Below are positions 17,832 through 28,806 of a stretch of 30,805 nt of DNA, piece after piece. Every line of letters begins with the position of its first letter. The first letter of the stretch is position 1. The notes below the pieces were generated by a model. It ran no database searches. It saw only the letters and a program-made list of their open reading frames with translations, and was not told the DNA's origin. The DNA comes from a virus: positions 1 to 30,805 of the IMG/VR virus record IMGVR_UViG_3300020430_000064; one strand, given 5' to 3'. The position numbers and the translations under genes were made by a program.

Positions 17832-18237
17832 GGCAGTAGACTTTAGGAATAAAGACTACTTTGACAGAATAGACGATCATGAGAGATCGCTATATTCACC
17901 ATTTATGCTGATGCGATACGCATCAAGTGTGTCGTCAAAGGATCCATTCTATGTTGAACACTACGTGGAAATGGTCAACGAATGTGTTAATAAAAATTTG
18001 TTTACACTATCTGGCAAACACAAAAAATTATGTTGGATACTAACAGCCATGTGTGGTGCACTTAAACCACAGTTCCATCCATGGATAAAACCAATGAAAA
18101 GGATTCCAAATAAAAGTTTAAAACAACTACAACAAATTTATCCAAACTGGAAGGAATCAGATCTCGAAACATTGGACAAAATTATAACTGACAGAGAACT
18201 AGAGGAGTTATTAGAAGCACATGGCATCAAAATATAA
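17782..18237 (+). CDS. 62: Clamp loader small subunit, gp62-like
   Basis: In T4, gp62 and the ATPase gp44 load the clamp gp45 onto DNA. This 151-residue helical protein resembles the short gp62 proteins of marine T4-like phages. The pattern SPFMLMRYAS at about 39-48 is followed by a helix rich in hydrophobics, then LSGKHKK, a FHPWIKP segment and a Leu-rich C-terminus. It is shorter than T4 gp62 (187). Similarity by eye is moderate and the partner genes 44 and 45 are not in this window. It overlaps the ORF before by 50 bp and the zinc-finger gene after by 17 bp. Confidence 0.7.
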   Translation: MTEKSKRKFFELRNGLKAVDFRNKDYFDRIDDHERSLYSPFMLMRYASSVSSKDPFYVEHYVEMVNECVNKNLFTLSGKHKKLCWILTAMCGALKPQFHPWIKPMKRIPNKSLKQLQQIYPNWKESDLETLDKIITDRELEELLEAHGIKI

Positions 18238-18904
18238 ATGTTCATACTGTGGTAAAGAATTCACCAAAGAAAGAACACTCCAGGTACATATGTGTGAGCC
18301 TAAAAGAAGATTCCTACAGAGGGATGAAAAATGGGTGGTTAATGCATTCATGGTGTTTCAAAGATTTTATCAGATCCATCAACACAACGCAAAACTTAAA
18401 ACCTATGAAGACTTTGTCAAAAGTCCTTACTACAATGCGTTTGTTAAATTTGGTAGATTCATAATGCATATAAATCCTTTATATCCAGAGAAGTATATAG
18501 ACTTTGTTCTTAAATCAAAGATCAAACTAGACCACTGGGCAAGAGATGACTTATACGAAACTTACTTGATAGAAGCACTCAAATCTGAACCTGTGGAAGC
18601 CGCACTTCAGAGAAGTATTACAACAATGATGGACTGGGCCAACGAGCAGAACGCACAGTGGTCAGATTACTTTCGATTAGTGAATACGAACAGGGCCGTG
18701 CAACACATCCAGCAAGGCAAGATAAGTCCTTGGTTGTTGCTAGGTTGCAACGCAGGCAAAAGGATGTTAAAATCATTTAACGACGAACAATTACAAATGA
18801 TAGAAAGATTTATAAACCCAAGTTTCTGGCCAAGCAAATTGAAAAGTTATCCCGCGGATCATATGCTGGTACAGGACACGGCAAAGGAGGCCAAGATTGT
18901 CTAA
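18221..18904 (+). CDS. Hypothetical protein with N-terminal C2H2-like zinc finger
   Basis: This 227-residue protein starts with a single zinc finger. The pair CSYC is at residues 7-10, followed after 12 residues by His23 and Cys25, with an FTKERTL helix start between. It is like a C2H2/C2HC finger. The rest is helical with several aromatic residues and no motif that I know. The location between the clamp-loader gene and a DnaE-like gene suggests DNA binding. A strong Shine-Dalgarno for the next gene lies inside its last codons. The product is not recognised. Confidence 0.75.
   Translation: MASKYKCSYCGKEFTKERTLQVHMCEPKRRFLQRDEKWVVNAFMVFQRFYQIHQHNAKLKTYEDFVKSPYYNAFVKFGRFIMHINPLYPEKYIDFVLKSKIKLDHWARDDLYETYLIEALKSEPVEAALQRSITTMMDWANEQNAQWSDYFRLVNTNRAVQHIQQGKISPWLLLGCNAGKRMLKSFNDEQLQMIERFINPSFWPSKLKSYPADHMLVQDTAKEAKIV
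18883..18890 (+). promoter_or_regulatory. Strong Shine-Dalgarno that sets a TTG start
   Basis: AAAGGAGG lies 6 nt before the TTG at 18897. It is one of the strongest ribosome binding sites in the window, and it supports TTG as the true start of the small ORF, since no ATG occurs early in that frame. Confidence 0.75.
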
Positions 18905-19130
18905 GATAGATTTGGAAATAGCAGACACATTAGAGTTTGACGATGGTGACTGTGCGATCATAATAAAACAAGATGGCTCAATAGGTAGAGTAATAATGCC
19001 AAAGATGACAGAAGAAATTGTAAACACAGAAGGATACAGAAAGTTGTTAGATGTGCTAGACGTCTTGCAACCTGGAGCCAAAGATAAGTTTATAAAACAC
19101 AGACAACAAGAGAAAGGAAGCATTCACTAA
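18897..19130 (+). CDS. Small acidic hypothetical protein with TTG start
   Basis: This 77-residue protein, read from TTG, has an acidic N-terminal half (EFDDGDC) and a helical, Lys-containing C-terminus. No motif is recognised. The strong ribosome binding site, its 8-bp overlap with the zinc-finger gene and its TAATG overlap with the DnaE-derived gene all argue for translation. A role with the DnaE-like protein is suggested by position only. Confidence 0.72.
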   Translation: MSKIDLEIADTLEFDDGDCAIIIKQDGSIGRVIMPKMTEEIVNTEGYRKLLDVLDVLQPGAKDKFIKHRQQEKGSIH

Positions 19131-19720
19131 TGCCTGATGTAGACATAGACTTTTTCGATAGGGACGGAGTATTAAAACTATTCAAACACACTCCTGCCAC
19201 AATGATAAAAGAGGGAAAAACGGAAAAGCACAAGACTGGTGTATACTTCCATGCTGTTCCAGAACATCCTGTGACCGGACACGCTTCACTGGATTACAAG
19301 AACGCAGAGGACAGAGGATATTTCAAGATAGACATGTTGAACGTCAACATCTACAAAGACGTTAAATCAGAACAGGAACTTGTTGAACTGATGATACAAG
19401 AGCCGGACTGGGACATGCTGAAAGACCCAAAGGTTGTAGAAAACTTATTCCACCTCAACGGACATTTCAAGATAGTTTCGAGTCTCGAACCAAAAAACAT
19501 AGAACAACTTGCGGCTGTATTGGCAATAATACGTCCGGCAAAAAGAGGACTGATGTACAAGAATTGGGTGGACATAATGAAAGAAGTGTGGGTAAAACCA
19601 ACTGATGGAAGTTATTTCTTTAAGAAGTCACATGCAGTTGCATATGCACAGGCAATAGTTGTGCAGATGAATTTGCTGAGCAGAGCTAAATATAGTTTTG
19701 ATGCACCATCAAAAAAGTAA
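19130..19720 (+). CDS. Reduced DnaE (family-C polymerase) palm-derived protein
   Basis: This 196-residue protein is recognisably derived from the DnaE alpha subunit but is a fraction of its size. It starts directly at the catalytic motif PDVDIDF (residues 2-8; Asp3 and Asp5 match E. coli Asp401 and Asp403). It then shows HKTGVYFHAVP (about 34-44, equivalent to HAGGVVIAP), and FKIDML at 65-70, where Asp68 matches Asp555 in KFDFLGL. NLFHLNGH and IIRPAKRG match the GVFQLES and RPGP motifs, and FFKKSHAVAYA at 163-172 matches FNKSHSAAYA. The PHP, finger-tip, beta-binding and OB regions are absent, as is the RGSGAGS motif. All three active-site Asp remain. It may be a regulatory or accessory subunit, or an exotic enzyme. 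It overlaps the small basic ORF downstream. Confidence 0.8.
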   Translation: MPDVDIDFFDRDGVLKLFKHTPATMIKEGKTEKHKTGVYFHAVPEHPVTGHASLDYKNAEDRGYFKIDMLNVNIYKDVKSEQELVELMIQEPDWDMLKDPKVVENLFHLNGHFKIVSSLEPKNIEQLAAVLAIIRPAKRGLMYKNWVDIMKEVWVKPTDGSYFFKKSHAVAYAQAIVVQMNLLSRAKYSFDAPSKK

Positions 19721-19862
19721 AAAGAAAATCATCAAAAGACGCACTAGAAAATCCAAATCTTCAAAACGTTCAGAGTATGGCAGTTATAAGCCGGATAGTC
19801 CTTTAACATTACACTATCTTACAACAGGTGCTATACTTCCTGAAAAAAAGAAGACTAGATAG
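19701..19862 (+). CDS. Small basic hypothetical protein (53 residues)
   Basis: This short ORF starts at the ATG at 19701, inside the end of the DnaE-derived gene, and ends at the TAG at 19860-19862. The first 24 residues are extremely rich in Lys and Arg, then a Tyr- and Pro-containing tail follows (EYGSYKPD, LTLHYL). The basic head fits nucleic acid binding. It overlaps the last 8 bp of the convergent gene at 19855. Without it, 19721-19854 would be an unexplained gap. Evidence is only coding potential and packing. Confidence 0.55.
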   Translation: MHHQKSKKKIIKRRTRKSKSSKRSEYGSYKPDSPLTLHYLTTGAILPEKKKTR

Positions 19863-20229
19863 GTCGTCTAACTAATTGGATAGTCTTCCTTTTCACCCGT
19901 TTCTTCGAAATTTCTGAAAGTTTCACTGTGGGTCCGTGAACGATTTCAACATCCTTTGAATTTAAAGTAACCAATGTTGACCTAAAATATCTGAACTCAC
20001 CTTTGAGAAAAATATTAATTGGCAATTTTCTATTAGACTCGTGCCACCAAGTTTCACCGCATTTAAGATATCTCATCTTATCTTGAGGTAGCATCAGTCT
20101 TCCGTAATCATAAAAACTGATCACATTGGCATCTTCATTTTGTATAATGCCCACAAACTCCATATCACCCTTTCTAATTAGGCTTAAAAAGGGGAACTTG
20201 TCCCTGAGTGTGTTAAAAATTTCGTTCAT
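19855..20229 (-). CDS. Hypothetical protein on the minus strand
   Basis: This 124-residue protein is not recognised. It has an N-terminal helix, a beta-rich middle (FVGIIQNED, VISFYDYG) and a very basic C-terminus (KKRVKRKT). There is a conserved-looking CGETWWHES segment at about 57-65 that could be a small functional loop. It is a single gene lying between two plus-strand runs, convergent with the small basic ORF and divergent from the virion-type gene. Confidence 0.75.
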   Translation of the reverse strand: MNEIFNTLRDKFPFLSLIRKGDMEFVGIIQNEDANVISFYDYGRLMLPQDKMRYLKCGETWWHESNRKLPINIFLKGEFRYFRSTLVTLNSKDVEIVHGPTVKLSEISKKRVKRKTIQLVRRPI

Positions 20230-21051: not shown

Positions 21052-22065
21052 ATGAACCTGATCCAATCTACTATTCTGACGAGCCTTCCAACGGCTAGGA
21101 AAAAAACTCCTAGTGGATGGATATCATTTAACGCACCTTGTTGCGTACACAACGGAGAGACAGCAGACAAAAAGAAACGTGGCGGTATAATGACCAGTGC
21201 TGACGGCACTGTAAGTTATCATTGTTTTAACTGTGGGTTTAAAGCAAGTTATGTTATTGGAAGGAAACTAACGTACAAGATGAGACAGTTCATGGGTTAC
21301 ATTGGGATACCCGACGACACAATACGTAAATTGGCAATAGAGGCCATGCGTGAAGAAGAGGGTGATATAAAATATGAAAAGAAAAAATTTGTAACATTTA
21401 AAAATAAAACACTACCCAAGAACTCACACAAACTGGACGTGTGGCTAGAAAAATATGTAGCAAAAGATTTGACTGAACCACAATGGAAAAAAATAGATGC
21501 AGTTCTGAAATATCTAGAAAGTAGGGGTATTGGACCTGAGTGGTATGACTTTATGTATTCACCAGAACAACATTGGGACGTTAACAAAAGATTGCTTATA
21601 CCTTTTTACTGGAGGGGTGATGTCGTTGGATTCACCGGAAGAATATTTGAATCATCAGACAAAGTAAAATACTATACAGACGTACAACCCGGATATGTGT
21701 TTAATATGGACGCACAGGATTGGACAAGGAAATTTGTGATAGTCACCGAAGGTCCATTTGATGCCATAGCAGTGTCTGGTGTGAGCATACTTGGTAGTGA
21801 AATAAACGCTACCCAAAGAGAATTGATAGACGGACTTGGTAGAAAGGTAATTGTAGTGCCGGATAGAGATGCTCCGGGAGAAAAACTTATCAACCAAGCA
21901 ATAGAGTTCGGATGGTGCGTTGCTTTTCCTGAATGGGATAAAACGGTTGGAGATGTGGCTGAGGCTGTGTTAAAATATGGGAGACTGTTTACTATACAAT
22001 CGATATTGAAAACAACAGAATCTAGTAAACTGAAAATTGATTTAAAAAGAAAAATGTATGGATAG
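21052..22065 (+). CDS. 61: DNA primase gp61-like
   Basis: This primase makes RNA primers and works with the gp41 helicase. The zinc ribbon is visible at the N-terminus (Cys30/Cys31, His33, then Cys58 and Cys61 in YHCFNCGF). The TOPRIM catalytic Glu is Glu233 in VTEGPFDA (231-238), and the metal Asp pair is in PDRDAPG (Asp271, Asp273). The 337-residue length matches T4 gp61 (342). It is followed by an oxygenase gene that overlaps its end by 8 bp, then gp41. The family call is firm. Confidence 0.93.
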   Translation: MNLIQSTILTSLPTARKKTPSGWISFNAPCCVHNGETADKKKRGGIMTSADGTVSYHCFNCGFKASYVIGRKLTYKMRQFMGYIGIPDDTIRKLAIEAMREEEGDIKYEKKKFVTFKNKTLPKNSHKLDVWLEKYVAKDLTEPQWKKIDAVLKYLESRGIGPEWYDFMYSPEQHWDVNKRLLIPFYWRGDVVGFTGRIFESSDKVKYYTDVQPGYVFNMDAQDWTRKFVIVTEGPFDAIAVSGVSILGSEINATQRELIDGLGRKVIVVPDRDAPGEKLINQAIEFGWCVAFPEWDKTVGDVAEAVLKYGRLFTIQSILKTTESSKLKIDLKRKMYG

Positions 22066-22666
22066 TCCGCAAAAAGCATTTACGATAGAAAACTTCTTAA
22101 GTGAAAAAGAACTTATGCACATCGATATCATAAGCAACACAATACCTAAGCAGATGAATAATGCAGAAAAACAAACCTTCACTAGCGGATTCAACTATTC
22201 TCTCATAAAAAAGATTGTAGACGAAAAACTTAAAAATATTTTTGGTGAGTTTAATGTGAAAGACTGTATGATACTCGAAGAAACAAAACCATGGGACATA
22301 CACACTGATTTTAACAAGGGAGACACCCATCCATACTATGCGTGTCTTATACCACTTGAATACGACGGCAAAGACACCCACACTGTGGTCTTCAACGAAG
22401 AAGCAAAGAATAGAGAGGAAATATTTCAATTACCTGAAAGTGAAAACAAATTGGATACTCAGACACTTGCCATATTGGACCATTGCAATGATAAAAAGTT
22501 ACAAAGGGTTTCATTACTGTCAAGTTACAAGTGGAAACGTGGTTCACTTATTTGCTGGCACAGAAAATTATTACATGCCAGCGATAATTTTAAAAAGAAT
22601 AAACTTGATAAAAAGAAAGCACTTGTGATGTTTTTGAACCAAGACAAAGAGGAATTGGATGGCTGA
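22058..22666 (+). CDS. 2OG-Fe(II) oxygenase-like protein (copy 2)
   Basis: This 202-residue protein has an iron-site pattern of the 2-oxoglutarate oxygenases. His82 and Asp84 (IHTDF) are followed by YACLIPLE and then WHRKLLHAS with His173, and a Lys-rich segment follows that could hold the 2-oxoglutarate-binding basic residue. It is not close to the copy at 8706. It sits between primase and helicase genes with overlaps on both sides, unlike a glycan enzyme, so a DNA or nucleotide target, such as a base modification, is possible. That is inference from position. Confidence 0.8.
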   Translation: MDSPQKAFTIENFLSEKELMHIDIISNTIPKQMNNAEKQTFTSGFNYSLIKKIVDEKLKNIFGEFNVKDCMILEETKPWDIHTDFNKGDTHPYYACLIPLEYDGKDTHTVVFNEEAKNREEIFQLPESENKLDTQTLAILDHCNDKKLQRVSLLSSYKWKRGSLICWHRKLLHASDNFKKNKLDKKKALVMFLNQDKEELDG

Positions 22667-24101
22667 ATATACATTTGATGTACAAAAACTTTATATGGAG
22701 ATGCTACTAGCAGATGCAGAATCGTTTGCCAGGGCACAGAACATATTCAAACCAGAATCGTTTGACAGGAAACTACAACCTATCGCAAAGTTCATAAAAG
22801 ACTACATGGACGAGTATAAGGTCATGCCTGAAGTCGAGCAAGTAAATGCAAAATTTGATATCAAACTAAAGTCAGCAAAAGACCTAGACCCAAGTCATTT
22901 CAACTGGCTACTAGACGAATTTGAAACGTTTTCAAGACACAAGGCACTAGAAAGTGCGATATTACAATCAGCAGACCTTTTAGAAAAAGGAGACTATGCT
23001 CCGGTAGAGGACATGGTCAAAGATGCGGTGAATGTAGGACTGACACGTGATCTTGGTACAGACTACTTTGAGGATCCAAAGGGAAGACTAGAGGCACTCA
23101 AAGCGAACAACGGACAGGTCAGCACTGGCTGGACCAATTTAGACAAGAAACTGTTTGGTGGATTTAACCGAGGAGAACTAAACATCTTTGCAGGTGGATC
23201 AGGCGCAGGTAAGAGTTTGTTCTTGCAGAATCTTGCAGTAAATTGGGCACAGGTTGGCCTGAACGTTTGTTATATATCATTTGAATTGAGCGAACAACTT
23301 ACTGCTATGAGATTGGATGCCATGATGACCAACATTCCAACACGTAAGGTTTTTCCAGAAATAGACAATGTGGAAATGAAAGTTAAGATGTTGGCCAAGA
23401 AGTCCGGAACTTTGCAGATCAAATATCTACCAAGCGGCAGTACTGTTTTGGACATCAGAACATATCTAAAAGAATTAGAACTGAAGAACAAAAAGAAAAT
23501 AGATTGTATATTGATAGACTATCTGGACTTGATGATGCCCAAGAGCAAAAGGATCTCTCCTGCAGACTTGTTCATAAAAGACAAGTATGTATCAGAAGAG
23601 TTGCGAAACTTGGTTGTGGAAAAACAATGTATACTGGCGACAGCATCACAGTTGAATAGAGCGAGTGTTGAAGAGATAGAGTTTGATCACTCTCACATTT
23701 CGGGCGGACTGTCCAAGATACAGACTGCAGATAATGTCATAGGTATATTCACAAGTAGAGCAATGAAGGAACGTGGAAGATATCAAATACAGTTCATGAA
23801 GACAAGATCTAGTTCTGGTGTTGGACAAAAAGTGGACTTAGAGTTTGATGTCGACAGTCTAAGAATAAGGGATTTGGCCGACGACCCAGAGTACAAACAG
23901 TTTGACAAACAGAGAAGCACGATATACGATTCTCTAAAACAAACTTCTAAGGTGTCTGCATCAGATGGCACACCAAAGGATGCACGAAACGACGTGCCGG
24001 ATCCACGTAAGGGTGACACAATAGGTAAAGTCAAGGCCACTGTAGAAGGTGGTAAACTGAGACAACTTCTTAACGAACTGCACTCAGATGAAGAACAATA
24101 A
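22659..24101 (+). CDS. 41: Replicative DNA helicase gp41 (DnaB family)
   Basis: This hexameric 5'-3' helicase drives the fork with gp61. The Walker A is GGSGAGKS at 179-186 and the Walker B strand is CILIDYLDLM at 283-292. The N-terminal region of about 140 residues is helical, as in DnaB-type helicases. An arginine-containing motif (HISGGLSKI) is near residue 345-352. The length (480) matches T4 gp41 (475). Its ends overlap the oxygenase before by 8 bp and the endonuclease III gene after by 14 bp. The assignment is firm. Confidence 0.94.
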   Translation: MAEYTFDVQKLYMEMLLADAESFARAQNIFKPESFDRKLQPIAKFIKDYMDEYKVMPEVEQVNAKFDIKLKSAKDLDPSHFNWLLDEFETFSRHKALESAILQSADLLEKGDYAPVEDMVKDAVNVGLTRDLGTDYFEDPKGRLEALKANNGQVSTGWTNLDKKLFGGFNRGELNIFAGGSGAGKSLFLQNLAVNWAQVGLNVCYISFELSEQLTAMRLDAMMTNIPTRKVFPEIDNVEMKVKMLAKKSGTLQIKYLPSGSTVLDIRTYLKELELKNKKKIDCILIDYLDLMMPKSKRISPADLFIKDKYVSEELRNLVVEKQCILATASQLNRASVEEIEFDHSHISGGLSKIQTADNVIGIFTSRAMKERGRYQIQFMKTRSSSGVGQKVDLEFDVDSLRIRDLADDPEYKQFDKQRSTIYDSLKQTSKVSASDGTPKDARNDVPDPRKGDTIGKVKATVEGGKLRQLLNELHSDEEQ

Positions 24102-24768
24102 TGATATTCAATACATATATGAGAAGTTAAGTTCTCTTTATCCGCACTATTCAAATAAAAAACCTAAAGCAAAAATTTATTCCAAAGCCTACACAAGTTT
24201 GATAGGGGTAATGCTTTCTGCACAGAGTCAAGATAAAAGAACAGCAATAGCATGTAGGCAACTTTTTTCATTGGCAGACACCCCCGAAGAGATGATAAAG
24301 TTAACACGAGAAGAAATTATAGAAGCAATAAAACCCGCAGGACTGTTCAATGCAAAGAGTAAAAATATTCTTGCGACTAGTAAAATCCTTATAGAAAAAT
24401 TTAATGGTATTGTTCCTAATACCCAAAAAGAATTAATGACACTTCCTGGTGTTGGCCGTAAAAGTTCTGACATTGTGATGCGTTTTGTATTCGGAGAACC
24501 ACACATAGCCGTTGACACTCACGTCTTTAGAATGTTATGGCGATTGGGTTGGGCAGACAGTCTCGACGAAGGTAAGGCTTCCATCACAGTCAACAACACG
24601 ACACCTGGCAAGTACAAGTACGGTGCCCACATGTGGTTGATTACACATGCAAAGAAAGTTTGCAAATCAAGAACTCCTATCTGTGATCCGTGTGCAATCA
24701 GTGCCGTTTGTGACAAGAGAGATATTACAATTCCAAAAAGTAAATTACGCCAAAATCTCACAGCATAA
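24088..24768 (+). CDS. nth: Endonuclease III-like DNA glycosylase/AP lyase
   Basis: This 226-residue protein is a complete base-excision enzyme of the Nth family. The helix-hairpin-helix LPGVGRK is at 119-125, with the catalytic Lys125 equivalent to E. coli Lys120. The catalytic Asp143 is in AVDTHV (matching Asp138). The [4Fe-4S] site is C-x6-C-x2-C-x5-C with Cys192, 199, 202 and 208, all present. Nth removes oxidised pyrimidines. T4 uses DenV for a different lesion, so this is a distinct repair gene. It is coupled to gp41 by a 14-bp overlap. Confidence 0.95.
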   Translation: MKNNNDIQYIYEKLSSLYPHYSNKKPKAKIYSKAYTSLIGVMLSAQSQDKRTAIACRQLFSLADTPEEMIKLTREEIIEAIKPAGLFNAKSKNILATSKILIEKFNGIVPNTQKELMTLPGVGRKSSDIVMRFVFGEPHIAVDTHVFRMLWRLGWADSLDEGKASITVNNTTPGKYKYGAHMWLITHAKKVCKSRTPICDPCAISAVCDKRDITIPKSKLRQNLTA

Positions 24769-24797: not shown

Positions 24798-24823
24798 AGG
24801 CAATAACAGGCAAACACAGGCAA
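24798..24823 (+). repeat. Three direct AGGCAA repeats at 10-nt period in a gene leader
   Basis: AGGCAA occurs at 24798, 24808 and 24818, exactly 10 nt apart, with the last copy running into the ATG. No normal Shine-Dalgarno is seen, so the AGG of the last copy may serve instead, at very short spacing. The gp32 leader has two similar motifs. A translational operator is possible. Confidence 0.55.
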
Positions 24824-26511
24824 TGAAAAAAGACAAAGAACTAAACGACATAACAAGGCTGTACGATAGATTCATTAGGCAATGCCCAGGCACAGAAGAA
24901 TACACGCAAAGGCTCGCTGAGGAAACTCAAATCATCCTTCGACTACGTTTCGTAGACTACTTCATCCAAATATGTGACATACTTGCAATAACCAGAGACA
25001 TACCTCATATGACTCGTGGCAGTGCGGGTTCATCACTTGTCTGCTATCTACTTGGCATAACAGATGTAGATCCTGTGGAGTGGGATATACCGGTTGCACG
25101 GTTTCTCAATCCAAACAGAGACGACCTCCCTGATGTTGATATTGATTTCCCCCATCACAAACAGAACGAGGTTATGCAGAGAATATTCAAACGATGGCCG
25201 GGACGCAGTGCTAGAATATCTAACTACGTGCTCTATCAAGATAAGTCAGCAAGGCGAGAAGCGGCCAAACGTTTGGGTGTAAAGGGTAACCTACCCCGCA
25301 GGTTCACATATGATTCTTTGGGTATAGACACCAAGGAAGCCAAAAGAATCGAAAATAAATTGAAAGGTAAGAAAAGATGCATATCAAAACACTGCGGAGG
25401 AATACTGATGTTTCAAAGACAACTACCAAAAAGCCTGTTCACGGCAGAGAATCAAATACTACTAGACAAGAACGAAGTGGAGGACCTAGAACATCTAAAA
25501 GTGGATATTTTAGCCAATCGTGGTTTATCACAACTCATAGAAATAGAACCTACTATGAAACTGACAGACTACCCAGAGGAAGATGCCGCTACCTCGGACC
25601 TTTTGTGTCGAGGAGACGTGTTAGGGGTCACACAGGCCGAGAGTCCGGCCATGAGGAGATTGTTCAGGGCAATACAACCAAAGAGTAGGAAAGACTGTGT
25701 ATTCGCAACTGCACTGATAAGACCTGTTGCTATATCAGGGAGGAAGAAGGCAACCATGTTTCATGACTGGAGTAAGGAACGTATGAGTGATACGATAGTG
25801 TACGAGGACGATGCCATAGATCGGATATCAGAAGTACTAGACATAGACAAGTACGAGGCAGACATGTACCGTAGAGCATTTGCGAAAAAGAATGAAGAAA
25901 AGATAATGGAATTCATAACTAGGTTGGGTAATCATCCACGCAAAGATGAGATAATCGCAATGCTACAATCTTTATCCGGTTTCGGTTTGTGTAGAGCTCA
26001 CGCTGTAAATTTAGGGAGACTGATATGGGCATTGGCCTATCAGAAAGCACACAACAAAGAAAAATTTTGGAGATCCTGTTTGAAACACTGTCAAGGTTCA
26101 TATAAACGTTGGGTCTACAGAACAGAAGCCAAGCGTGTGGGTATAGAAGTCGTTACACCTAGCAAATCAGATAGATGGGACACACCACAGTTCCAATACA
26201 GGAAGTATGGATGGTGGAGCCAGAATGATTTTATGCCTGGCATGTATGTAAAAGAATTATATCTCGACAAGGTCGAGTTTGCCGGAATGATAGCAAACGG
26301 ACGAGTGTTTCGAGGTGACAAAGGAAGATACGTTACATTCCTTACTCTAGGAGTTGGCAACGGAGAATACATAGACGTCACCATAAAAAAAGCATTTGCA
26401 TACAGCGACCATGACGTTGTATGGGGACAGGGAACTATAAGACACTCCAACAATTCGGACTATGTGGAGTGCTACGATTCCAAGGGATTTAGATTAGAAA
26501 AATTCCTGTAA
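24823..26511 (+). CDS. PHP-less DnaE-type (family-C) DNA polymerase
   Basis: This 562-residue protein keeps the core of DNA polymerase III alpha. The RGSAGSS motif is at 65-71, followed by DPVEWDIPVARFLNP, and the catalytic motif PDVDIDF at 103-109 (Asp104, Asp106). HCGG is at 190-193, the third Asp is Asp228 in LKVDIL, GVTQAES is at about 268-274, IRPVA at 299-303, and FGLCRAHAVNLGRL at about 387-400. A C-terminal OB-fold domain is likely at about 483-540 (FAGMIANGR, YVTFLTLG). The PHP domain and the long finger and beta-binding parts are missing; E. coli DnaE has 1160 residues. T4 relatives use family-B gp43, so this is unusual. It could be a second polymerase or a lesion-bypass enzyme. Confidence 0.87.
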   Translation: MKKDKELNDITRLYDRFIRQCPGTEEYTQRLAEETQIILRLRFVDYFIQICDILAITRDIPHMTRGSAGSSLVCYLLGITDVDPVEWDIPVARFLNPNRDDLPDVDIDFPHHKQNEVMQRIFKRWPGRSARISNYVLYQDKSARREAAKRLGVKGNLPRRFTYDSLGIDTKEAKRIENKLKGKKRCISKHCGGILMFQRQLPKSLFTAENQILLDKNEVEDLEHLKVDILANRGLSQLIEIEPTMKLTDYPEEDAATSDLLCRGDVLGVTQAESPAMRRLFRAIQPKSRKDCVFATALIRPVAISGRKKATMFHDWSKERMSDTIVYEDDAIDRISEVLDIDKYEADMYRRAFAKKNEEKIMEFITRLGNHPRKDEIIAMLQSLSGFGLCRAHAVNLGRLIWALAYQKAHNKEKFWRSCLKHCQGSYKRWVYRTEAKRVGIEVVTPSKSDRWDTPQFQYRKYGWWSQNDFMPGMYVKELYLDKVEFAGMIANGRVFRGDKGRYVTFLTLGVGNGEYIDVTIKKAFAYSDHDVVWGQGTIRHSNNSDYVECYDSKGFRLEKFL

Positions 26512-26521
26512 ATATGGGTAT

Positions 26522-27508
26522 ATGCCCAATCTTACTATGCCAACCCCAATAGAACTAGCGTTCGAACCAATTAACCTTTGTAACGCAAGATGCTTCTGCT
26601 GTCCATACACATACCTAGAAAAGGATAAGGAGTACAGGGGAAAAAGGATGTCTGAAGACCAGGTGAGAACACTCATACATGATTTTGCAGATGGTATAAA
26701 AGAACATAATATAAATCCAAAATATACAGTTGTCAAACCATGGCGTTATTCTGACCCGTTAGTCAACCCATACATGGAACTGGTTTTTGATTTGTGTCAA
26801 AGGTATAATCTTAAAGTGAACATTACAACAAACGCGGTAAGTTTTACAGAACGAAAATGCAAAATAATAGAACGGTACATCAATAGTGTAAACAAAATAA
26901 ACATTTCAATAATAGGTTTCAACAAAGAAGAAATAAAAGAATGGATGGACATTGACTGGGACGTCACAAAAGAAAGATTAAAATTTATAAAAGAAAACTA
27001 TCCTCAAGTAAGCAGAAAAATGATTATAGGTGTCAAACATAAAATACAACGTCCAACTATAGAACACTACGGACCGGTAGTTGAACAAATACAAAAACTT
27101 ACTTTAGGAAAGGTAAAGAAGAAAGCGGACTGGTTAGAAAGCAGAGTTGAGTGGAACGGTCTTAAGACAGACGAATTTGACTTTCCCATTTCTGAAAAGC
27201 AATTTGTACAAGGCTGTTCCATGGTCAACGGCAAGATATTAAGGACGCTAGAAGTTCTTGTTGACGGGCAGGCTGTCCTATGTTGTGATGACGCCACAGG
27301 GAAAACAAACTTCGGTAATGTATTTGATATAGGGATAAAGGGTGCTTGGAAGAATCTTGTAGCATATCATAAGGAAATATTCAGTAACGAGTACACAGAA
27401 TCCAAAACAAACATGATGTGTAACACCTGCAGTAGAGCAAAGTTTAATTGGACCGACGCTAGAACACAGTCAATATATGCAGAACATAGCAGATACCTCA
27501 ATCAGTAG
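26522..27508 (+). CDS. Radical SAM protein with C-terminal SPASM-like cysteines
   Basis: This 328-residue protein has the radical SAM motif C-x3-C-x2-C at Cys20, 24 and 27 (LCNARCFCC), which binds the [4Fe-4S] cluster that cleaves S-adenosylmethionine. Extra cysteines at 232, 254/255, 300 and 303 (CNTC) fit an auxiliary SPASM/twitch cluster. Such enzymes mature peptides or modify glycans and cofactors. It lies 10 nt after the DnaE-like gene, with an ATG at 26522 that begins just before the conserved region. The substrate is unknown. A second radical SAM protein follows at 27790. Confidence 0.85.
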   Translation: MPNLTMPTPIELAFEPINLCNARCFCCPYTYLEKDKEYRGKRMSEDQVRTLIHDFADGIKEHNINPKYTVVKPWRYSDPLVNPYMELVFDLCQRYNLKVNITTNAVSFTERKCKIIERYINSVNKINISIIGFNKEEIKEWMDIDWDVTKERLKFIKENYPQVSRKMIIGVKHKIQRPTIEHYGPVVEQIQKLTLGKVKKKADWLESRVEWNGLKTDEFDFPISEKQFVQGCSMVNGKILRTLEVLVDGQAVLCCDDATGKTNFGNVFDIGIKGAWKNLVAYHKEIFSNEYTESKTNMMCNTCSRAKFNWTDARTQSIYAEHSRYLNQ

Positions 27509-27619
27509 CGAAAGCGTAAATTACCAAAAAAGCGTTTTTTAGAAAATAACGCGAAGCGTTAAAAAGCGTAAAGCAGGCCTGACCTGAACGATAATTACAG
27601 TAACAATGGGAGTTACACA
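27509..27619 (+). other. Intergenic spacer with AGCGT repeats and a small hairpin
   Basis: This 111-bp gap is the longest without a gene in the plus-strand part. AGCGT occurs four times at 27513, 27531, 27555 and 27565. A palindrome TAACGC-GAA-GCGTTA at 27547-27561 forms a 6-bp stem with a 3-nt loop, and an A6-GCG-T6 stretch lies at about 27526-27540. No T-run follows the hairpin on plus, but on minus it is followed by TTTTCT, so a weak terminator on that strand is possible. A GGGAG ribosome-binding-like site precedes the ATG at 27620. Confidence 0.6.
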
Positions 27620-27793
27620 ATGGGCATACACTATGATTACAAAAGCACCAGAGGTGACAAGAAAATGCGAAAGCAACAGGAACGTGAGGAGCGAAGGCGC
27701 AGAAAGAAAAAAAACAACTCCCAAAAACCAAACAGCACTATACCCGAGAATGTGGTGCTGACTCTTGACATGTTGACTGATCCCAACAGATGA
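27620..27793 (+). CDS. 57-residue basic protein coupled to a radical SAM gene
   Basis: This small ORF begins at ATG 27620 with GGGAG about 8 nt upstream and ends at TGA 27791-27793, overlapping the radical SAM gene by ATGA. The first half is very rich in Lys, Arg and Glu (KMRKQQEREERRRRKKK); the second half is less charged (NSTIPENVVLTLDMLTDPNR). It has no Cys. Its fused translation with a radical SAM enzyme resembles the arrangement of peptide precursors and their maturases, but no known precursor motif is visible. It could equally be an RNA- or DNA-binding protein. Confidence 0.6.
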   Translation: MGIHYDYKSTRGDKKMRKQQEREERRRRKKKNNSQKPNSTIPENVVLTLDMLTDPNR

Positions 27794-28806
27794 TAAACAA
27801 ACGACTATTTGAACACTACGGCATAGACACCAACAAGGACCTCGGCATCAAGAGCATATGTGGCAGGCCCTACGACACTGTGCTTATAGACAAGCAGGGT
27901 TCGTGCTACGCCTGTGAGTGCACCGCGTGGTTGCCACAGAGCATAGGCAACCTGCAGGTAAAAACCCTGTCAGAGATCATAGGATCCAACATGCACAGAC
28001 ACCTGCAGGAATCAATAAAAGACGGGACATACAGATACTGCAACAACAAACAGTGCACCTACATCAAGACCAATTCGTTCGATTCTCCCGCGGGAGGCAT
28101 AAAACATCTGCGATTGGCAATAGACGACAGTTGCAATCTGCGATGCCCTAGTTGTAGGAAGAACCTTATATTCCACAAAGAGGGCTCCGCATACAACCTG
28201 GGCATAAGGCTGGCGGACAGGATAAACGAATGGCTACAGACCCATGAGGGATCCATACAGGTGCACATAGGATCCGACGGGGATCCATTCGCATCGCACG
28301 TGTACAGATACTTCATGGACCAGACGCCCGAGCGTGACAACATAAAATATTCCATCCTGACCAACGCACTGATGTTCCGAGAGTTCCACACACGTGTTCC
28401 CTACGTGATGAGGAATCTGAACGAATTGGGAGTCAGCATAGACGGCGCCAGCAAGGCCACCTATGAGAAACTGCGACTGGGTGGTCGTTGGGACAAAGTC
28501 AACGATAACCTCCAAAGCATTGCGGAGGCCAAACAGAAACACGGCTTCAAGTTCATACTGTACTTCGTGGTTCAGAAGGATAACCACCATGAGATGGATG
28601 ACATGTTGGCCTTGGGTGAACGCTATGGCGCAGACAGGGTGAACTTCTCGCTGATCGAGGACTGGGGAGTGCTACCAGATTTCAAATCTAAACTACCACC
28701 GTTAGAAGACCCACGATTCAAGGAAATGTTGGACAGGTGCACAAGATCGAGGCTGGGCCAGACCTGGTTGCCGGGCGGTGTTGTCAAGGCACGACCCCTT
28801 ATATAG
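27790..28806 (+). CDS. Radical SAM protein with N-terminal SPASM-like cluster
   Basis: This 338-residue protein has C-x3-C-x2-C in DSCNLRCPSC (Cys115, 119, 122), so it is a radical SAM enzyme. Before this, residues 24-89 hold Cys24, 39, 42, 44, 84 and 89, which look like a SPASM-type domain placed at the N-terminus instead of the usual C-terminus. The segment IGNLQVKTLSEI is typical of SPASM (IGNL...L.EI). A conserved GVSIDGAS motif is in the barrel. The gene has clearly higher GC than most of the window, suggesting separate origin. It converges on the SGNH gene with 2 nt between them. Confidence 0.85.
   Translation: MINKRLFEHYGIDTNKDLGIKSICGRPYDTVLIDKQGSCYACECTAWLPQSIGNLQVKTLSEIIGSNMHRHLQESIKDGTYRYCNNKQCTYIKTNSFDSPAGGIKHLRLAIDDSCNLRCPSCRKNLIFHKEGSAYNLGIRLADRINEWLQTHEGSIQVHIGSDGDPFASHVYRYFMDQTPERDNIKYSILTNALMFREFHTRVPYVMRNLNELGVSIDGASKATYEKLRLGGRWDKVNDNLQSIAEAKQKHGFKFILYFVVQKDNHHEMDDMLALGERYGADRVNFSLIEDWGVLPDFKSKLPPLEDPRFKEMLDRCTRSRLGQTWLPGGVVKARPLI

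Follow-up and report, generated by a model that had tools for sequence, protein, structure and literature searches.

The 196-residue protein studied here is a marine member, with strong sequence conservation, of the split DNA polymerase III (Pol III) alpha already described in 2021. Its gene lies in a window of 30,805 bases, which is an entire IMG/VR record and a piece of a larger virus genome. Most probably, the protein is the C-terminal subunit (C-half) of a two-protein minimal family-C core, which would add nucleotides at primer ends close to a primase and a helicase. A "minimal, split DNA polymerase III alpha" was reported in the PolB-encoding jumbo phages of group 2.2, where its two halves were proposed to restore enzyme activity together and to serve as a model of an ancestral form (Iyer et al., 2021; PMC7824862); the paper on phage CBB noted only a "truncated" alpha subunit of 172 aa (PMC5259590). 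The marine protein agrees with the form of Iyer et al. (2021) in sequence family, cut point, size, catalytic residues, gene neighborhood and, in its relatives, the company of PolB, and it is ~52-55% identical to its counterparts in Phosso and Atu_ph07. It differs in that the N-terminal half (N-half) is off this contig, and in that this phage adds a single-chain mini Pol III alpha of 562 aa. Our analysis contributes the exact cut point, a residue map, a co-occurrence count, the missing thumb, an estimate of selection and a separation from the 562-aa protein.

The initial annotation of the window had proposed a 196-residue, DnaE-derived ORF starting at PDVDIDF. The ORF check confirmed this proposal, as the frame opens with ATG, runs over 196 codons with zero internal stops and is collinear with E. 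coli DnaE. All the motifs named at that stage are present, but FKIDML had been listed before HKTG; the order in the protein is PDVDIDF, HKTG, FKIDML, RP, KSH, which is also that of DnaE (Table 1). By hmmscan, the whole protein matched PHROG 11778 ("DNA polymerase," 197 positions) with E=1.1e-66, residues 3-187 being aligned with profile positions 8-195 of 197. Its N-terminus lies immediately ahead of PDxDID and it has the Asp triad that binds Mg2+, two traits of the C-half family. The match to the Pfam family DNA_pol3_finger was below threshold (13.9 bits, cut-off 22), and a sequence search against the PDB gave no match, even at E 10. The homology of the 196-aa protein is therefore founded on profiles and folds.

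Table 1. Features of the window around the C-half gene (coordinates in bases of the 30,805-base window).
Feature	Coordinates	Strand	Evidence or occurrence
C2H2 zinc-finger-like protein, PHROG 11058, upstream neighbor	18221..18904	+	in 80/80 close relatives
77-aa ORF, stop overlaps C-half start (TAATG)	18897..19130	+	in 80/80 close relatives
C-terminal half of split minimal Pol III alpha, 196 aa	19130..19720	+	PHROG 11778 E=1e-66; AlphaFold2/Foldseek
PDVDIDF motif, residues 2-8; D3, D5 = E. coli Asp401, Asp403	19133..19153	+	profile alignment to DnaE 399-419
HKTG motif, residues 34-37 = E. coli KH511AGG	19229..19240	+	HHalign; H34, G37 unvaried
FKIDML motif, residues 65-70; K66, D68 = E. coli Lys553, Asp555	19322..19339	+	HHalign; both unvaried
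RP motif, residues 135-136 = E. coli R639-P640 (fingers)	19532..19537	+	profile alignment, HHalign
KKSH motif (KSH = residues 166-168); H168 = E. coli His760	19622..19633	+	profile alignment, E. coli 752-767
Small convergent ORF, downstream side	19855..20229	-	in 73/80 close relatives
DnaG-type primase, same cluster	21052..22065	+	PHROG 47 E=7e-38; synteny
DnaB-like replicative helicase, same cluster	22659..24101	+	PHROG 19 E=2e-72; synteny
562-aa PHP-less single-chain Pol III alpha	24823..26511	+	PF07733 E=3e-42; own RGS, PDVDIDF, KVDIL

A profile of 196 distinct homologues aligned to positions 399-419, 596-641 and 752-767 of E. coli DnaE (NP_414726.1; PDB 2hnh, 2hpi), and HHalign placed KHKTG on K510-H511, KID68 on K553-F-D555 and RP on R639-P640. 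Based on these alignments, D3, D5 and D68 are the equivalents of Asp401, Asp403 and Asp555, which we take to be the catalytic residues of E. coli DnaE; KH511xGG, R639-P640 and KSH760 are also shared. The three aspartates, whose retention had been noticed in the initial annotation, and D7 as well, were unvaried in the 196 distinct homologues, an invariance that for D3, D5 and D7 was partly selected for in some sets, because some scan patterns included DxDID. D68 was in none of the patterns, and D3, D5 and D7 were kept also in loci matching only the other scan pattern. In a set of 93 representatives with less than 80% identity, the invariant positions numbered 16 (D3, D5, D7, H34, G37, P44, K66, D68, W94, R135, P136, K138, W154, F164, H168 and N181). 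When codons were compared among 81 close marine copies (1183 pairs), the median pairwise dN/dS was 0.049, well below the value of 1 against which it was to be checked, and the gene is thus under purifying selection. Since the protein covers just a small portion of a polymerase, a functionless, decaying DnaE fragment could be imagined, for which relaxed selection, a lost active site or a broken frame would be expected. The dN/dS of 0.05, the unvaried catalytic residues, the full-length ORF in 240 of the 241 extracted loci and the conserved neighborhood refute this reading, to which we attach a negligible probability; the initial annotation had likewise argued against simple decay.

Complete cellular DnaE unites PHP, palm, thumb, fingers, HhH and OB in one chain. 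The phage form, by contrast, is split in two and is without PHP, thumb, most of the fingers, HhH, clamp-binding and OB parts, the 196-aa protein itself consisting only of the C-terminal part of the palm and shortened fingers. D7 and H34 are 26 residues apart, compared with 105 in E. coli, so that the thumb, with the boundaries that we assume for it in E. coli DnaE, has been removed. Similarly, the spacing between P136 and H168 (31 residues vs. 119) indicates the removal of much of the fingers, and 28 residues follow H168 vs. 400 in E. coli. The lack of most polymerase domains, remarked upon from the start, concerns in the C-half the thumb, a large share of the fingers and all parts further downstream. 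The structure prediction proposed for the protein alone was performed with AlphaFold2 and reached a mean pLDDT of 92.2 (92.0 for an N-half). When these models were compared with the PDB by Foldseek, the top 13 matches of the C-half were all Pol III alpha/C-family polymerase entries, and the top 16 of the N-half were all Pol III alpha or another family-C polymerase (PolC). The TM-scores were moderate (0.33-0.53), as expected with the thumb missing and the fingers shortened.

In every named phage searched, the N-half was found as a protein of its own (PHROG 11127), 169-177 aa long. Across homologues its length varies from 161 to 202 aa, ~172 aa being typical; it carries the GRGS (NTP-binding) part of the palm and ends with "...DLDIxEFLK." The N-half profile aligned to E. 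coli DnaE 322-392 and the C-half from 399, and together they tile the DnaE palm with zero overlap (profile alignment, HHalign). Because the break falls between DnaE 392 and 399, with neither half holding the other's part, we infer that the two proteins dock into a single active site. The C-half would contribute the palm's three metal-binding aspartates along with the shortened fingers, and the separately encoded N-half of ~172 aa would contribute the GRGS nucleotide-binding part. To our knowledge, an active site shared in this way by two small proteins, encoded by distant genes, would make up the smallest family-C polymerase core known and, if true, it would show how much a cellular replicase can shed while remaining functional. 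The 196-aa protein had been thought to be possibly the smallest DnaE-derived protein of its kind, an idea that has to be abandoned, as the predicted partner is smaller and both were published in 2021 (PMC7824862).

The two halves occur together almost without exception. By tblastn, the N-half was detected in 60 phage records, all among the 63 records with a C-half, and a profile search added Slicko01 (complete, 141 kb), that is 61 of 63; the remaining two are PP728206 (109 kb, from a phage type with ~346-kb genomes) and Slickus01, the sister of Slicko01 (the profile search covered Slicko01). In four mapped phages the two genes are far apart, for example at 115 kb and 149 kb in RaK2. Among IMG/VR contigs, which are mostly incomplete, the C-half was present in 10 of the 12 of at least 100 kb where the N-half was found, and the N-half in 5 of the 9 of at least 190 kb where the C-half was found. 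No fusion of the halves was seen among the extracted loci (C-halves 184-221 aa, N-halves 161-202 aa). Across 17 genomes, the pairwise distances of N- and C-halves were correlated (r = 0.75, Mantel 0 of 5000), a correlation which may come from shared phage ancestry alone. Profile searches of the 30.8-kb contig found no N-half gene, except for an N-half-like stretch inside the 562-aa protein, and neither profile found an N-half in the contigs of the close marine relatives. All these contigs are fragments of at most 61 kb, and the missing N-half is therefore no evidence of absence. With the cut point defined, the unvaried residues known and the halves almost always found together, the two-protein core is directly testable with proteins of ~172 and 196 residues; no experimental test of split Pol III alpha was found in the literature searched.

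The C-half homologues came from 63 phage records (tblastn), nearly all of them jumbo phages, including Atu_ph07, Phosso, PA5oct/Cassandra, RaK2, 121Q, GAP32, CBB, XacN1 and SCTP-2; two 141-kb Alishewanella phages are also among them. Each IMG/VR scan gave 455-570 loci that encode relatives. Together with the PHROG match, these numbers put the observation far above what chance would give. No relative from GTDB genomes was confirmed by tblastn, thus no cellular copy of the C-half was found. The single exception to the ORF lengths of the extracted C-half loci was one of 75 aa (locus L201). The C-half of Atu_ph07 (L001, NC_042013.1, 7992-8567) has a late annotated start (8073), by which the DIDID motif is lost from the annotation, and other C-halves are labeled "putative membrane protein" or hypothetical in GenBank, such labels being common for one of the two halves.

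The gene belongs to a replication cluster with the order C2H2-like gene, small ORF, C-half, convergent ORF, structural-type gene, primase and DnaB. This order is common to Atu_ph07, Phosso, RaK2 and Cassandra, and in good part to Slicko01, with a small convergent gene at the same place in all five; it was also observed in the 80 close marine relatives, as far as their contigs reach. PolB turned up in 4 of the 4 named phages searched, as well as in Slicko01 and in the majority of the large contigs with a half, and none was found within the 30.8-kb fragment. The gene between primase and DnaB (22058-22666) is a variable insertion spot, encoding 202 aa here and different proteins of 228 and 239 aa in two relatives (L029, L068).

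All parts of the palm are contained in the 562-aa protein itself. Like the split form, it is a PHP-less family-C core of large phages (this window and LR756508), but it has both palm parts in one chain and more of the fingers, and it is patchy in the clade. Its best relative (38%) is encoded at 47370-49016 of LR756508.1 (L185), a 484-kb uncultured phage in which PolB is present and neither split half was found by profile searches; in phages that have the split pair, the same searches found nothing resembling the 562-aa protein. As LR756508 has a 562-like protein together with PolB and no split halves, large PolB phages may carry either the single-chain form or the split one. The initial annotation had considered the 562-aa protein as a possible partner, and the 196-aa protein could be seen as its accessory or regulatory subunit, given that both genes are within 6 kb here and in 7 relatives and that the only N-half-like sequence of the window is inside the 562-aa protein. 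Where the site was sequenced in close relatives, 7 have the 562-aa gene (2 cut by the contig end), 17 are without any 562-aa gene, and 3 (L029, L032, L059) keep a scar of its last ~24 residues after DnaB; these latter 20 relatives all have an intact 196-aa gene. Such a distribution, the full palm of the 562-aa protein and the separation of the two forms in LR756508 and the split-pair phages make this partnership highly improbable. Because of its patchiness in close relatives, the 562-aa protein is regarded as an optional second enzyme and probably not the partner of the 196-aa protein. The 562-aa gene travels with an nth-like endonuclease gene (24088-24768).

For the two-protein core, we propose that the complex would add nucleotides at primer ends beside the phage primase-helicase, with a family B polymerase as the main replicase. 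Its likely job would be to extend RNA primers before a hand-off to PolB, gap filling or repair being the alternative. The role of primer extender is a guess, drawn from the primase-helicase neighborhood and from an analogy with Bacillus subtilis, whose DnaE extends primers and hands over to PolC (PMC5627055). Both cases would involve a family-C enzyme by a primase and a hand-off to another replicase; the DnaE of B. subtilis differs in being full length and in having PolC, not PolB, as partner. Of the functions suggested in the initial annotation, that of a subunit is the best of the three, and nuclease and nucleotide sensor found no support.

The halves could also assemble into something other than a DNA polymerase, either a nucleotidyltransferase of Pol-beta fold that modifies some other substrate, or a structural component of the replisome whose metal site serves for binding only. 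The split form has no thumb, OB or clamp-binding parts and lacks ~90 residues of the fingers, and a full PolB is already present. Moreover, Arg390 of DnaE, which all the aligned single-chain DnaEs keep, is matched in the N-halves by a Glu with almost no variation (e.g., L101:9992-10507), a replacement that would suit such a reading. However, the fingers motifs RP and H168 of KKSH, as well as W154, are unvaried, and an enzyme working without a template would be less likely to need them; the position of the gene within a primase-helicase cluster also speaks against this reading. We therefore consider the non-polymerase reading rather unlikely and retain the two-subunit polymerase core as the preferred one. 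As judged from sequence, efficient polymerization by the split form is not assured, since the thumb is absent and Glu replaces Arg390 in the N-half. In the most complete scenario, which is possible but tentative, a thumbless two-subunit family-C polymerase would extend primers for a hand-off to PolB, and a second, single-chain core would accompany it in this marine phage.

Two further observations were made. Slicko01 (L343), an Alishewanella phage of 141 kb, has both split halves and PolB, though it is not a jumbo phage and falls outside the group originally described. Downstream in the window, positions 26522-28806 encode two adjoining radical SAM proteins with SPASM-like domains.
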